NCBI GenBank assembly: GCA_017856235.1 | Contig: JAFMFH010000002.1 | Location: 1 to 64,000, forward strand | Length of the DNA stretch: 64,000 bases | From: Flavobacteriaceae bacterium | GTDB lineage: Bacteria > Bacteroidota > Bacteroidia > Flavobacteriales > Flavobacteriaceae | Direction: 5' to 3' | Shown here: positions 32,078 through 40,197 of the stretch, piece by piece | Layout of the letters: every line of letters begins with the position of its first letter | Position numbering within the stretch: position 1 is the stretch's first letter | Translations under genes and position numbers: made by a program | The notes under the pieces: generated by a model | What the model saw: only the letters and a program-made list of their open reading frames with translations | What the model was told of the DNA's origin: nothing | Databases searched by the model: none

Positions 32078-32084
32078 TTAGAAA

Positions 32085-32135
32085 CAGAGGAAGGATTTGA
32101 CTGATTGCAACCTCTTAAAAAATTGCTAAAGCAGT
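32085..32135 (+). promoter_or_regulatory. SAM-II-type riboswitch aptamer upstream of metK
   Basis: A compact H-type pseudoknot matching the SAM-II class. P1 is AGAGG (32086-32090) with CCTCT (32111-32115). The P1 loop holds ATTT (32095-32098), then ACTG (32100-32103) and GATTGCAA. The 3' segment contains the conserved GCTAAA (32125-32130) followed by CAGT (32132-32135), which pairs with ACTG to close the pseudoknot. This order matches the known SAM-II core (GATTTAAC ... ATTGCA ... GCTAAA). It precedes metK-metY-metX, the expected regulon. SAM should bind and lower expression. Confidence 0.83.
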
Positions 32136-32166
32136 AATTCTTTTACAAGCAATCACGTCTTTTTTT
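32099..32166 (+). promoter_or_regulatory. Possible expression platform overlapping the SAM-II aptamer
   Basis: GACTGATTGC (32099-32108, in the aptamer loop) can pair with GCAATCACGTC (32149-32159) through 10 bp with one bulged C, directly followed by seven Ts (32160-32166). A second option pairs ATTGCT (32122-32127) with AGCAAT (32148-32153). Both exclude the ligand-bound pseudoknot. Whether either one terminates transcription is unclear, because the naive logic (terminator without SAM) is opposite to the expected control. Confidence 0.4.
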
Positions 32167-35672: not shown

Positions 35673-36100
35673 TGGCAATTTATTTAGATAGAGTTAATGA
35701 CAAATACCTATTTGAATTATCAAATGAAAATGGTTATAAAGTTCTTTTAGATAGAAAGCACTCAACAGATTATCAAGTTCAAGGTGCCAGTCCAATGGAA
35801 CTTTTACTTATGGGAGTTGCAGGTTGCAGTAGTATAGATATTATTTCTATTTTAGAAAAACAAAAGTTAGATCCTAAATCATACAAAATGGAGGTTGTGG
35901 GTGAAAGAGAATCTGAACCAGGAAGACCATTTAAAAGGATTCATGTAAAACTATTGATTGAAGGAGAAATTCCAGGTGATAAAATAATACGTGCAGCAAC
36001 ACTAAGTTTTGAGAAGTACTGTTCCGTTTCAAAAAATCTCGAGAAATCAACTTTGATAGAGCACTCAATTTATCTTAATGGAGAGCTTATTAAAAAATAG
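35672..36100 (+). CDS. OsmC family protein
   Basis: A 142-residue OsmC/Ohr-fold protein. The first redox Cys is in GASPMELLLMGVAGCSSIDI (about residue 50), and the second is in FEKYCSVSKNLEKS near residue 113, as in peroxide-reducing members. The short form with these positions fits the general OsmC group rather than Ohr. Its ATG overlaps the stop of the MetX-like gene by one base, so it ends the SAM-controlled operon. Its link to methionine synthesis may be oxidative protection of thiols (inference). Confidence 0.87.
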   Translation: MAIYLDRVNDKYLFELSNENGYKVLLDRKHSTDYQVQGASPMELLLMGVAGCSSIDIISILEKQKLDPKSYKMEVVGERESEPGRPFKRIHVKLLIEGEIPGDKIIRAATLSFEKYCSVSKNLEKSTLIEHSIYLNGELIKK

Positions 36101-36109
36101 TATAAAAAG

Positions 36110-36140
36110 TTTGATATTTTAAATACCTATTATACTTTTG
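36110..36140 (+). promoter_or_regulatory. Promoter of the Phe/Tyr operon leader
   Basis: TTTG (36110-36113), a 19-bp spacer and TACTTTTG (36133-36140), a full match to the Bacteroidota consensus. Transcription should start near 36146, next to the leader-peptide ATG at 36148. It lies just after the osmC stop, so the phe operon is separate from the met operon. Confidence 0.75.
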
Positions 36141-36147
36141 TTAAGTT

Positions 36148-36207
36148 ATGAAACAAAATTTTAATTTTTATTACTCATATTACTTCTCTTATCAGAAGAA
36201 GGGATAA
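36148..36207 (+). CDS. Phe/Tyr-rich attenuator leader peptide
   Basis: A 19-codon ORF encoding MKQNFNFYYSYYFSYQKKG, too short for normal gene calling. Eight of 19 residues are Phe (3) or Tyr (5), packed between positions 5 and 15. It starts 7 bp after a consensus -7 box, and a terminator hairpin follows 28 bp after its stop, right before pheA. This is the layout of ribosome-mediated attenuation: stalling at Phe or Tyr codons when charged tRNA is scarce would favour an antiterminator and let pheA-tyrA-DAHP synthase be transcribed. No SD-like sequence is seen, consistent with leaderless initiation. Confidence 0.78.
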   Translation: MKQNFNFYYSYYFSYQKKG

Positions 36208-36239
36208 TTATGTATAATTAAATTAAAATATAATAGTCC
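36183..36239 (+). promoter_or_regulatory. Candidate pause hairpin and antiterminator of the phe attenuator
   Basis: CTTCT (36183-36187, in the Tyr-Phe-Ser codons) pairs with AGAAG (36194-36198). GGGATAATTAT (36201-36211) can pair with ATAATAGTCC (36230-36239) with one wobble, one mismatch and one bulge, which would break the terminator's left arm (36235-36241). The stems are AT-rich and only moderately convincing by eye; energies were not computed. Confidence 0.45.
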
Positions 36240-36262
36240 TGTCAAATCAGGACTTTTTTTTT
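36235..36262 (+). terminator. Attenuator terminator hairpin before pheA
   Basis: A perfect 7-bp stem AGTCCTG / CAGGACT (36235-36241 with 36248-36254) with a 6-nt loop and nine Ts (36254-36262). It ends two bases before the pheA ATG at 36265, so it cannot serve the upstream osmC gene alone without also blocking pheA; it makes sense as an attenuator. Confidence 0.88.
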
Positions 36263-36264
36263 AT

Positions 36265-37074
36265 ATGAAAGTATCAATACAGGGAATTAAAGGTTCATTC
36301 CACCATATGGTGGCAAACGAGTATTTTAATTCTTTTGAATTACTAGAATGCTCAACCTTTGAAAATTTAGTTAAATCAATTGATAAAGAAGAATCTGACT
36401 TTGGTGTCATGGCAATTGAAAATTCAATTGCGGGATCAATACTTCCTAATTATGCCCTAATTGACGAGTATAATTTATGTATAACAGGAGAACATAATTT
36501 AAATATAAATCATAATTTAATGTGTCTAGCTGGTCAAAAAATTGATCAAATTCATGAAGTCCAATCACACCCAATGGCTTTACTTCAATGTTCCAAATTT
36601 TTTAATAATTATCCTCACATCAAATTGATTGAGAGTGAGGACACAGCTTTATTTGCAAAAAAAATCAAAGATGAAGAAATTAAAGGTGTTGGAGCCATTG
36701 CAAGTAAAGAAGCCTCTGAAATTTATAATTTAGAAATTCTAGAAGAATCAATCCAAACTATCAAAAACAACAAGACAAGATTTGTGATTCTTGAAAAAAA
36801 GAATACAAATATTGAATTTAATAAAGCTGCACTAAAGTTTATTCTTGATCATAAAAGAGGAAGTTTAGCATCAGTTTTAAATGTGATGAGTGATTGTAGT
36901 CTTAATCTTACTAAAATTCAATCTTTACCTGTAATACAGACCCCAGGTAAATATGCTTTTTTTGTTGACATTACTTTTAACTCAGTAGATAATTACAATA
37001 AAGCAAAAAAAATTATTGAAATAATGGCTCAAGAATTTAAAGTTTTAGGTGAATTTAAAATTAAAGAATTATGA
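36265..37074 (+). CDS. pheA: Prephenate dehydratase
   Basis: A 269-residue enzyme that converts prephenate to phenylpyruvate. The dehydratase domain (about residues 1-180) has IQGIKGSFHHMVA, FGVMAIENSIAGSI, VQSHPMALLQC and the catalytic NNKTRFVILEK (the TRF motif). A C-terminal ACT domain from about residue 190 (HKRGSLASVLNVMSD and KIQSLPV) is in the place that senses Phe, though GALV and ESRP are altered. No chorismate mutase domain is fused here; it is fused to the DAHP synthase below. Overlaps tyrA by 4 bp. Confidence 0.94.
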   Translation: MKVSIQGIKGSFHHMVANEYFNSFELLECSTFENLVKSIDKEESDFGVMAIENSIAGSILPNYALIDEYNLCITGEHNLNINHNLMCLAGQKIDQIHEVQSHPMALLQCSKFFNNYPHIKLIESEDTALFAKKIKDEEIKGVGAIASKEASEIYNLEILEESIQTIKNNKTRFVILEKKNTNIEFNKAALKFILDHKRGSLASVLNVMSDCSLNLTKIQSLPVIQTPGKYAFFVDITFNSVDNYNKAKKIIEIMAQEFKVLGEFKIKEL

Positions 37075-37919
37075 ACGTAGGAGTAATTGGCTTGGGATTA
37101 ATTGGAGGGTCTATAGCGTTAAAGATTAAGGAAATAGATATAAATACAGTAATCTATGGACTTGATAAAGATTTTGATTCAATGAGTTATGCATTAGGCA
37201 AAGGTATAATAGATAAAAAACTAGATATAAACTCAATTGATAACTTAAATTTCATTTTTATTGCAATACCTGTAGATGCTATCAAAAGTGAAATAGAGTC
37301 AATATTGAGTAAAATCTCAAATAATACTTTAGTTGTTGACTTAGGTTCAACAAAGCATGAGATATGTAAAAAAGTAGAAGACCATTCTAATAGAAAAAAT
37401 TTCCTTGCAGCACATCCAATAGCTGGTACGGAGTTTTCAGGCCCTTCAGCTGCAACTAAAGATCTTTTTGAAAATAAAGTTTTAATTCTTTGTGAAACAG
37501 AAAAAACTGATCAAGATTTATTATCGGATGCTCTAAAAATTTTTGATTCTATGAATATGAATATTATCAATATGGGTTCAATTGAACATGATAAGCATAT
37601 AGCTTATGTATCACATCTTTCACATGTTTCGTCTTTTATGTTAGGAAAGACAGTAATGAACAAGGAAGAAGATCAAGATTCCATTTATAATATGGCTGGA
37701 AGTGGATTTGAGTCAACTGTTAGGTTAGCAAAAAGCTCACCTGAAACATGGGCATCAATTTTTGTTGAAAATAAAAATAATATTGTTGAATCACTTAATG
37801 AGTATATATCTAATATCAATAACTTTAAAATTTTAATTGAAAAAGGTGATAAAGAAAAATTAAGTGCTGAAATGAAAAAAATAAATGGTATTAGAGAAAT
37901 ACTTAAAGAAATTAAATAA
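37071..37919 (+). CDS. tyrA: Prephenate dehydrogenase
   Basis: A 282-residue NAD(P)-dependent enzyme that turns prephenate into 4-hydroxyphenylpyruvate. The Rossmann motif VGVIGLGLIGGSIA starts the protein, DLGSTKHEI and AAHPIAGTEFSGP contain the catalytic His region, and HVSHLSHVSSFML near residue 183 is family-typical. Its ATGA overlap with pheA suggests coupled translation. Together with pheA it forms the branch point that the Phe/Tyr leader peptide would sense. Confidence 0.94.
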   Translation: MNVGVIGLGLIGGSIALKIKEIDINTVIYGLDKDFDSMSYALGKGIIDKKLDINSIDNLNFIFIAIPVDAIKSEIESILSKISNNTLVVDLGSTKHEICKKVEDHSNRKNFLAAHPIAGTEFSGPSAATKDLFENKVLILCETEKTDQDLLSDALKIFDSMNMNIINMGSIEHDKHIAYVSHLSHVSSFMLGKTVMNKEEDQDSIYNMAGSGFESTVRLAKSSPETWASIFVENKNNIVESLNEYISNINNFKILIEKGDKEKLSAEMKKINGIREILKEIK

Positions 37920-37925
37920 ATAAAT

Positions 37926-39008
37926 ATGGAAAATAAAAAGGAGTTTAGAAGTTGGTTAGACAATATGAACCTTGGCCACCCATTAGTTATAGCTGGACCT
38001 TGTAGTGCAGAAACTGAAGAGCAAGTTTTAAAAATTGCACATGAACTCAAAGATTCAGATGTATCAGCATATAGAGCAGGTATATGGAAACCAAGAACTA
38101 GACCTGGAATGTTTGAAGGTGTAGGTGCAATTGGTCTAAATTGGTTAGAAAAAGTTAAAAAGGAAACAGGTTTAATGATTGCAACAGAAGTTGCAAATTC
38201 AGTGCATGTAGATCTTGCACTTAAACATGATGTTGATATATTATGGATTGGAGCAAGGTCTACAGTATCTCCATTCATTGTTCAGGAAATTGCCGATGCG
38301 CTAAAAGGGACTGATAAAATTATACTAGTTAAAAACCCAGTTAATCCTGATTTATCTCTATGGTTAGGTGGGATTGAAAGAATATACTCCTCAGATATAA
38401 ACAAAATAGGTGTTATACATAGAGGATTCTCATCTTATGACAAATCTAAATATAGAAATAATCCAGAATGGCAAATTGCAGTTGAACTCCAAAATAATTT
38501 TCCTGATCTACCTCTAATATGTGATCCATCACATATTGCTGGAAAAAGAGACTTAATTTTTGATTTAAGTCAATCTGCACTAGATTTAAATTTTGATGGG
38601 TTAATGATTGAGACCCATTGTGACCCTGATAATGCTTGGAGTGATGCTGCTCAACAAGTAACTCCAAAAAGATTGATAGAAATAATGAAAGATTTGAAAA
38701 TTAGAGAAAAGACTTCAGAGGGAGAAGATTATTTAAAAAAACTTAAAAAACTTAGATCTCAAATTGATGTTGCAGATCAAAATTTATTATCAATATTAGG
38801 TAAGAGGATGAAAGTCGCAAAGGAAATAGGTAAACTAAAATCCGACAACAATGTTGCAATTTTACAAAATAAAAGATGGAACGAAATTCTTGGAAAAATG
38901 ATTTTAGATGGTGAGGAACATGGGTTAAGTGAAGAATTTATTTTAAAAATTTTTAAAGCAATTCATCAAGAATCAATTAATAATCAAAAGAAAATATTAA
39001 ATAAATAA
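37926..39008 (+). CDS. Bifunctional DAHP synthase / chorismate mutase
   Basis: A 360-residue fusion. The N-terminal DAHP synthase (about residues 1-255) is the KDO8P-synthase-like type, with IAGPCSAET, AGIWKPRTRPGMFEG, LWIGARSTVSPF, VIHRGFSSYDK, CDPSHIAGKRD and ETHCDPDNAWSDAAQQ. The C-terminal chorismate mutase (about 270-360) has LRSQIDVADQNLLSILGKRMKVAKEIGKLK, an AroQ helix. It carries out the first step of the shikimate pathway and the step leading to prephenate, so it feeds pheA and tyrA. The AroQ domain may give feedback control by prephenate. Confidence 0.93.
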   Translation: MENKKEFRSWLDNMNLGHPLVIAGPCSAETEEQVLKIAHELKDSDVSAYRAGIWKPRTRPGMFEGVGAIGLNWLEKVKKETGLMIATEVANSVHVDLALKHDVDILWIGARSTVSPFIVQEIADALKGTDKIILVKNPVNPDLSLWLGGIERIYSSDINKIGVIHRGFSSYDKSKYRNNPEWQIAVELQNNFPDLPLICDPSHIAGKRDLIFDLSQSALDLNFDGLMIETHCDPDNAWSDAAQQVTPKRLIEIMKDLKIREKTSEGEDYLKKLKKLRSQIDVADQNLLSILGKRMKVAKEIGKLKSDNNVAILQNKRWNEILGKMILDGEEHGLSEEFILKIFKAIHQESINNQKKILNK

Positions 39009-39015
39009 TCTAAAA

Positions 39016-40197
39016 ATGTTATCAGAAAAAATAAAGTCTTTGCCTATATCTCAGACGGTTGCAATGACAGCTAAAGCACATGATTTGAAAAACCAAGGAA
39101 TAGATGTTATAACTCTAAGTGCAGGTGAACCTGACTTCAATATTCCAGATTACATAAAAGAAGCAGCAGTTGAGGCTATTAACAATAATTATCATAAATA
39201 TTCTCCAGTTGATGGCTATCTTGACTTGAAAAAAGCAATTTGTAAAAAATTTAAAAGAGATAATAACTTAGATTATGATGTGGATCAAATAGTTGTTTCA
39301 ACAGGAGCAAAACAATCAATAGCAAATGTATGCATGTCATTAATAAATCAAGGAGATGAAGTATTAATCCCGACACCATACTGGGTAAGTTACAGTGCCA
39401 TGGTCGCTTTAGCTGAAGGAGTACCTGTATTTATCAATCCATATGAAAACTCAAATTATAAAATTACTGCTGAACAACTTGAGTCTGCAATAACAGATAA
39501 AACAAAAATGTTAATGCTTAACTCACCTAATAATCCAAGTGGATCAGTTTTTACTGAAAAAGAGTATCTTGAGTTTTCTAAAATCCTTGCAAAGTATCCA
39601 GATATAATTATAGTATCAGATGAAATTTATGAACATATAAACTATGGAGTAAAATCAGTAAGTTTTGCTAGCTTACCCGGAATGTTTGATAGAACAGTTA
39701 CTGTAAATGGTATTTCAAAAGCTTTTGCAATGACTGGTTGGAGAATAGGTTATTTGGGAGCACCTAAAGTAATTGCTAAAGCTTGTAATAAAATGCAAGG
39801 TCAGATAACAAGTGGAGCAAATTGTATTGCACAAAGAGCTACAATCAAAGCACTAGAAGAGTCGCCTGATAAAATTCAATACATGATTGATGAATTTAAG
39901 ATTAGAAGGGATTTTATTATAGATCGTGTTAAAAAAATCAATGGTTTTAAAATAGAACAACCTCCTATGGGGGCATTTTATATTTTTCCAGATATCTCAG
40001 AATTATTTGGTAAAACATTTAGGGGTGTAACTATCAATGATGCTAATGATTTATCAATGCTTATTCTTGAAAAAGCTCATGTTGCTACAGTTCCTGGAGA
40101 TGCTTTTGGATACCCAAACTGTATTAGAATTTCTTATTCAGCTTCAAGAGAACAAATTGAAGAAGCAATAAAAAGAATAAAAGACTTATTATCTTGA
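39016..40197 (+). CDS. Class I aminotransferase (aspartate / aromatic)
   Basis: A 393-residue fold-type I PLP enzyme. YSPVDGYLDLKKAI, STGAKQSIANV (PLP phosphate), NSPNNPSGSVF and SDEIYEHI (cofactor Asp) precede the Schiff-base lysine in VNGISKAFAMTGWRIGYLG (about residue 236). The subgroup resembles type Ib aspartate aminotransferases, some of which also transaminate prephenate or aromatic keto acids. Its place after DAHP synthase suggests it performs the last step to Phe and Tyr. A second aminotransferase lies at 56 kb. Confidence 0.9.
   Translation: MLSEKIKSLPISQTVAMTAKAHDLKNQGIDVITLSAGEPDFNIPDYIKEAAVEAINNNYHKYSPVDGYLDLKKAICKKFKRDNNLDYDVDQIVVSTGAKQSIANVCMSLINQGDEVLIPTPYWVSYSAMVALAEGVPVFINPYENSNYKITAEQLESAITDKTKMLMLNSPNNPSGSVFTEKEYLEFSKILAKYPDIIIVSDEIYEHINYGVKSVSFASLPGMFDRTVTVNGISKAFAMTGWRIGYLGAPKVIAKACNKMQGQITSGANCIAQRATIKALEESPDKIQYMIDEFKIRRDFIIDRVKKINGFKIEQPPMGAFYIFPDISELFGKTFRGVTINDANDLSMLILEKAHVATVPGDAFGYPNCIRISYSASREQIEEAIKRIKDLLS

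Follow-up and report, generated by a model that had tools for sequence, protein, structure and literature searches.

The pheA leader of Escherichia coli senses Phe only, and the leaders of the enterobacterial ilvGMEDA and thrABC operons hold codons for several amino acids, a shortage of any one of which leads to read-through. A comparative survey by Vitreschak in 2004 reportedly lists some attenuators from Bacteroidetes/Chlorobi. In a survey of 2010, leader peptides were described as known only in Proteobacteria and Actinobacteria, to which that work added Firmicutes (PMC2965389). The Bacteroidete tryptophan peptide leader RNA has its own Rfam family (Bacteroid-trp, RF01692). For Flavobacterium psychrophilum, a transcriptome published in 2021 strongly hints that amino-acid operons are attenuated by leader peptides, and it describes a structured 5′ element at pheA that is conserved in Flavobacteriaceae and has no Rfam match (PMC9723704).

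In this study, we analysed the pheA locus of a marine member of the Flavobacteriaceae with a small genome, within a 64,000-nt stretch of its genome (the window; contig JAFMFH010000002.1), where an earlier note had proposed a Phe/Tyr leader-peptide attenuator. Taking the sequence together with a ribosome-position model, the pheA leader very probably controls transcription by ribosome-mediated attenuation, in response to charged tRNA-Phe and tRNA-Tyr. Its parts and the operon downstream are as follows.

36110–36113, forward strand: −33 promoter element TTTG, read from the sequence
36133–36140, forward strand: −7 promoter element TACTTTTG, Bacteroidota housekeeping sigma factor consensus TAnnTTTG
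36145, forward strand: predicted transcription start, from the −7 box offset given for F. psychrophilum in PMC9723704
36148–36207, forward strand: leader peptide ORF MKQNFNFYYSYYFSYQKKG, 19 codons plus stop, with 3 Phe, 5 Tyr and 0 Trp
36160–36192, forward strand: putative control codons 5–15 (F N F Y Y S Y Y F S Y), from the sequence and the ribosome-position model
36183–36198, forward strand: pause hairpin (region 1), CTTCT-N6-AGAAG, from CUUC/GAAG pairing in the genus
36201–36213, forward strand: region 2, 5′ half of the antiterminator, from covariation with region 3
36228–36240, forward strand: region 3, 3′ half of the antiterminator, from covariation; overlaps the 5′ arm of the terminator
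36235–36262, forward strand: intrinsic terminator (region 3:4), 7-bp stem AGTCCTG/CAGGACT and nine T, from a terminator scan
36265–37074, forward strand: pheA, prephenate dehydratase (PF00800, E 2e-55)
37071–37919, forward strand: tyrA, prephenate dehydrogenase (NF006307 above cut-off; PF02153, PF20463)
37926–39008, forward strand: DAHP synthase–chorismate mutase fusion (PF00793 and PF01817)
39016–40197, forward strand: class I/II aminotransferase of the aspartate/aromatic type (PF00155; best NCBIfam match asp_aminotase_Arch, below cut-off)

Leader ORF, promoter and conservation

Every coordinate that the earlier note had assigned to the promoter, the 19-codon ORF, the terminator hairpin and the nine Ts was confirmed in the sequence. 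All of the Phe and Tyr codons of the leader ORF lie within 11 codons (codons 5–15), and they specify amino acids made by the operon downstream, as expected of an attenuator. Among 174 distinct pheA leaders, aromatic codons made up a fraction of 0.39 in the leader frame, compared with 0.12 and 0.18 in the two alternative frames. The claim that both end products are sensed holds for the codons found in the genus of the window genome, where Phe and Tyr are both present and Trp codons occur in 0 of 22 leaders; it is too narrow for many relatives, as Trp is present in 72 of the 174 distinct leaders sampled. Because Trp codons also occur in so many relatives, the name 'aromatic leader' fits better.

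To describe conservation, 198 regions upstream of pheA were taken from the genus, from Flavobacteriaceae more widely and from some further families of the order, and an aromatic-rich ORF was defined by an ATG start, a length of 10–45 codons and at least seven Phe/Tyr/Trp codons in 14. Such an ORF was present in 185 of the 198 regions, including 22/22 in the genus, and was nearly always followed by a terminator; the same definition was matched in 67 of 3960 dinucleotide-preserving shuffles (1.7%) and before 2.9% of 377 other coding genes of the same loci. The leader is also carried by locus L050 and by the Flavobacterium loci examined (for example L111, MASNRFYFSNNFYFFFSRSQDCAMVI). Two relatives (L059 and L074) lack the attenuator and have repeats in its place: upstream of their pheA genes are two to three copies of the form GAGTTCGAAGAACGAAATAAAAT...AATCCCGC-N-AAGGCGGGAT, which may represent a REP- or MITE-like element that displaced the leader. 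Outside the family but within the same class, an aromatic-rich ORF preceded 16 of 27 sampled prephenate dehydratase genes and was accompanied by a terminator in 12 of these cases, in a scan with simple criteria whose control in mononucleotide shuffles gave 0.2% and whose absences may be false. No relative of pheA was found among viral contigs.

The promoter is conserved too. The TTTG element, with a spacer of exactly 19 nt (19 nt also separate it from TACTTTTG in the window), occurs in 22/22 genus members, and TACTTTTG is unchanged in 22/22. More broadly, TAnnTT[TA]G lies within 90 nt 5′ of 149 of 174 distinct leaders, compared with 25 in shuffles; the TAnnTTTG consensus is taken from PMC7366714 and PMC9723704. 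The leader ATG at 36148 lies 7 nt past the −7 box, and the box-to-ATG gap is 6–9 nt in 22/22 pheA leaders of the genus, compared with mostly 10 or 16–18 nt in the rest of the family. In F. psychrophilum, the box spans −12 to −5, and leaderless transcripts make up only 5.5% of the mRNAs (PMC9723704). If the same offset applies here, the 5′-UTR of the Phe/Tyr leader would be about 3 nt in the window, that is, near-leaderless, and predicted 5′-UTRs of the pheA leaders would be 2–5 nt across the genus.

A second leader of this kind precedes trpE in the same genome (locus L253, contig C36). It encodes MIKVNTYWWWIHEL with three consecutive Trp codons (WWW), and its terminator, GCTTGTCTCACGACAGGC plus a T run, lies directly before trpE. 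Where the locus is readable, almost every member of the genus has a trpE leader and terminator (also L237–L242, L246–L252, L255 and L256), with WW or WWW. The −7 box of the trp leaders in the genus, TATATTTG, ends 4–5 nt 5′ of the leader ATG; with the F. psychrophilum offset, the predicted 5′-UTR is mostly 0–1 nt, so that the trp leader peptide is predicted to be leaderless. The occurrence of a WWW leader at trpE beside a Phe/Tyr leader at pheA indicates that the leader codons match the product of each operon. No codon-matched leader was found in the ilvD upstream region of the same genome.

Pairing, covariation and spacing

The pause hairpin, noted before as a possibility, has its arms at 36183–36187 (CTTCT) and 36194–36198 (AGAAG) and is confirmed by the genus, in which each pair of CUUC/GAAG is kept in 20–22 of 22 members. 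In the window genome, an alternative stem (36185–36190 with 36199–36204) also hides region 2. Region 2 overlaps the final leader codons and the stop codon. The arms of the antiterminator are GGGATAATTAT (36201–36211) opposite ATAATAGTCC (36230–36239), a pairing that had likewise been put forward as possible and that is supported by the covariation of regions 2 and 3. The terminator has a perfect 7-bp stem (AGTCCTG at 36235–36241, CAGGACT at 36248–36254) with nine T at 36254–36262, and it sits between the leader ORF and the first structural gene, the ATG of pheA being at 36265, as the attenuator class requires. The leader as a whole folds with z = −3.6, and 0 of 200 shuffles folded equally well.

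The terminator stem arms are invariant within the genus, and the stem is paired in all 170 distinct leaders counted. Three main types of region 3 were seen among these leaders, CTC/GAG (63), CCT/GGA (56) and CCC/GGG (30), and regions 2, 3 and 4 change together across them, with 94.6% of cells paired between regions 2 and 3 and 100% between regions 3 and 4. Covariation was measured by duplex energies and by an anchored count, with a control in which arms were exchanged between loci of different type. The antiterminator arms had a mean duplex energy of −12.6 kcal/mol with their own partners versus −9.0 kcal/mol when swapped, and exact hexamer matches between arms numbered 39 for own partners versus a mean of 3.6 and a maximum of 9 for swapped ones. 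This three-way covariation indicates that antiterminator and terminator are mutually exclusive, both using the 5′ arm of the terminator. With the short ORF and the terminator kept in relatives and the antiterminator kept through compensatory change, the attenuation reading of the earlier note is supported.

Region 2 starts 9.4 ± 2.2 nt past the last aromatic codon (sd 4.9 for swapped arms), although this result hinges partly on how the last aromatic codon is defined, which the swapped control covers only partly. Relative to the leader stop codon, the start lies at −14.5 ± 7.7 nt and is far more variable. Across the pheA leaders L024–L199 of the family, genera differ freely in how long the leader is and where it stops, while the gap separating the antiterminator from the last aromatic codon hardly changes. 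Such a near-fixed distance is possibly a general rule for finding attenuators.

Folding of the leader with the ribosome at different positions, a check proposed at the outset, behaves in the model as attenuation requires. The pairing model uses a footprint value of the E. coli ribosome. Over 185 leaders, regions 2 and 3 paired in the model at 0.74 with the ribosome on aromatic codons versus 0.01 at the stop codon, the ribosome edge being set by the E. coli toeprint rule, from which that of Bacteroidota may differ. In the window, this pairing was 0.82 at F13, 0.49 at Y15 and 0.05 at Q16; in the model, the antiterminator stays free while the A site is on codons 5–14 and is blocked beyond codon 15, which is itself borderline. 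The control codons therefore reach the last position that leaves the antiterminator free. With the E. coli footprint, a stalled ribosome would thus free the antiterminator and a finishing one would block it, and in terms of the model such spacing is what ribosome-mediated attenuation requires. Taken together, these computations establish the parts of the attenuator, their conservation, the three-way covariation and the spacing.

At equilibrium, the terminator prevails in the window (0.93–1.0) at every ribosome position; therefore, either read-through is kinetic and depends on which RNA segments are synthesized first, or the window species has weaker regulation. Region 2 of the window is AGGGA, compared with CAGGA in most close relatives, and its antiterminator is weaker than theirs (−10.5 vs −12.8 kcal/mol).

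Proposed mechanism and alternatives

From these features we infer that the leader is translated, that ribosomes stall on it, that transcription terminates there in vivo and that pheA responds to starvation. Transcription would start a few nucleotides 5′ of the leader AUG, and a ribosome would load immediately. When Phe or Tyr is scarce, the ribosome would stall on one of codons 5–13, its front edge covering an arm of the pause hairpin and leaving region 2 (36201–36213) free to pair with the emerging region 3 (36228–36240); the terminator would then not form, and polymerase would proceed into pheA, tyrA and the DAHP synthase–chorismate mutase and aminotransferase genes. When both amino acids are abundant, the ribosome would reach the stop codon and cover region 2, region 3 would pair with region 4, and transcription would end near 36262. 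In a leader that is not translated, the 1:2 stem would favour termination. Since stalling on either amino acid suffices, the logic would be that of a Phe-or-Tyr shortage.

The hairpin might instead control the initiation of pheA translation rather than transcription, a ribosome on the leader freeing the stem, as a stem 10–30 nt 5′ of the pheA AUG would block ribosome entry. In the genus, the T tract ends 2 nt 5′ of the pheA ATG, so that the read-through mRNA would begin translation right behind the hairpin, and transcriptional and translational effects may act together there. A translational switch needs no T run, however, and a T run after a GC stem is conserved throughout, even where the stem lies 40–130 nt from pheA, which makes control of translation in place of transcription very unlikely. 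A 5′ RNA that binds a metabolite, a protein or a tRNA, in the manner of a riboswitch or T-box, could also sense the amino acids, with the ORF incidental; the structured leader and the terminator that precede this amino-acid operon would be compatible with it. Yet no Rfam aptamer or T-box scored above threshold at the pheA leader, the conserved structure consists only of the small hairpins that attenuation needs, and both the identity of the codons and their spacing to region 2 are conserved, so that we consider such a sensor extremely unlikely.

The upstream gene, osmC, has the same orientation and stops at 36100, and Phe codons arise readily from T-rich DNA; the terminator could thus merely end the metK-metY-metX-osmC transcript, with the Phe/Tyr ORF as a by-product of T-rich sequence. 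Against this, a promoter conserved in 22/22 genus members lies between osmC and the ORF, the aromatic richness is specific to one frame, region 2 covaries with the terminator arm, and the leader is kept in other genera. The idea of a terminator belonging to osmC is rejected on the promoter and covariation evidence and largely refuted by the comparative data, and we give it practically no credence. Attenuation by a ribosome translating the leader remains the preferred reading.

The downstream operon and comparison with known leaders

The operon makes the amino acids that its leader is proposed to sense, through pheA, tyrA, the DAHP synthase–chorismate mutase and the aminotransferase, as is usual for this class. 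The fusion enzyme is the sole DAHP synthase detected in the assembly, which is 92% complete. A second PF00793 match was rejected as another DAHP synthase, being KdsA, and neither a type II DAHP synthase nor hisG (HisG) was found in this 92% complete assembly. The sole DAHP synthase thus stands under a leader that lacks Trp codons, although trpE with its own attenuator is present; Trp shortage alone would presumably not raise the entry enzyme by that route. Further upstream, a SAM-II (long loop) riboswitch lies at 32081–32139 of the window, directly 5′ of metK-metY-metX-osmC, and in an Rfam search of the window only this element and one tRNA reached threshold. With the pheA attenuator, two neighbouring operons of the window would thus be served by two different RNA switches.

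We lean slightly towards a wider view, in which a composite attenuator found across Bacteroidota integrates the shortage of Phe, Tyr and often Trp, with the Trp codons gone in this streamlined marine genus and both of its leaders leaderless or nearly so. If so, one leader would control the pathway entry enzyme together with the Phe and Tyr branches, and transcription of both leaders would start at the leader AUG or within about 5 nt of it. Aromatic amino-acid operons would then commonly be governed by attenuation in a phylum where Shine–Dalgarno signals are largely missing and the sigma factor is unusual, and tight coupling of transcription and translation would be implied. The near-leaderless promoters predicted for both leaders raise the question of how the ribosome loads early enough to control polymerase. 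The pheA leader is well suited to found a new Rfam family and to guide the annotation of overlooked leader peptides.

The earlier note regarded Phe/Tyr attenuation in marine Bacteroidota as not well described. That view has to be softened, given the Trp leader RF01692 and, in PMC9723704, the pheA 5′ element and the clues for leader peptides; no description of the multi-aromatic specificity was found in the literature searched. The F. psychrophilum element concerns the same gene in the same bacterial family and, as here, a structured 5′ transcript, and the main text of PMC9723704 does not give the sequence or codon specificity of a leader, an antiterminator, Trp codons or a range beyond the family. 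New here are the systematic support, the multi-aromatic sensing, the occurrence outside the family and the promoters predicted to be near-leaderless for both leaders of the genus, a novelty limited by those published hints and by the Rfam Trp leader of Bacteroidota.

The proteobacterial Phe_leader (RF01859) likewise has a Phe-rich leader peptide and a pause/antiterminator/terminator layout before pheA, but membership of the pheA leader in that family failed, whole-model alignment giving 22.2 bits for the window and 31.8 bits for locus L025, both far below the gathering score of 55. RF01692 resembles the pheA leader in relying on leader-peptide attenuation, in the same phylum and for an aromatic amino acid, but differs in its Trp codons and its trp operon; it gave no match to the pheA leader of the window, and the trpE leader of the same genome scored 36.2 bits against it, below the gathering score of 49. 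The ilvGMEDA and thrABC leaders share with the pheA leader the use of codons for several amino acids in one leader, but these are branched-chain amino acids or Thr/Ile in proteobacteria, neither aromatic nor in Bacteroidota. Unlike the Phe-only leader of E. coli, the leader of the window carries both Phe and Tyr codons, to which other genera add Trp.
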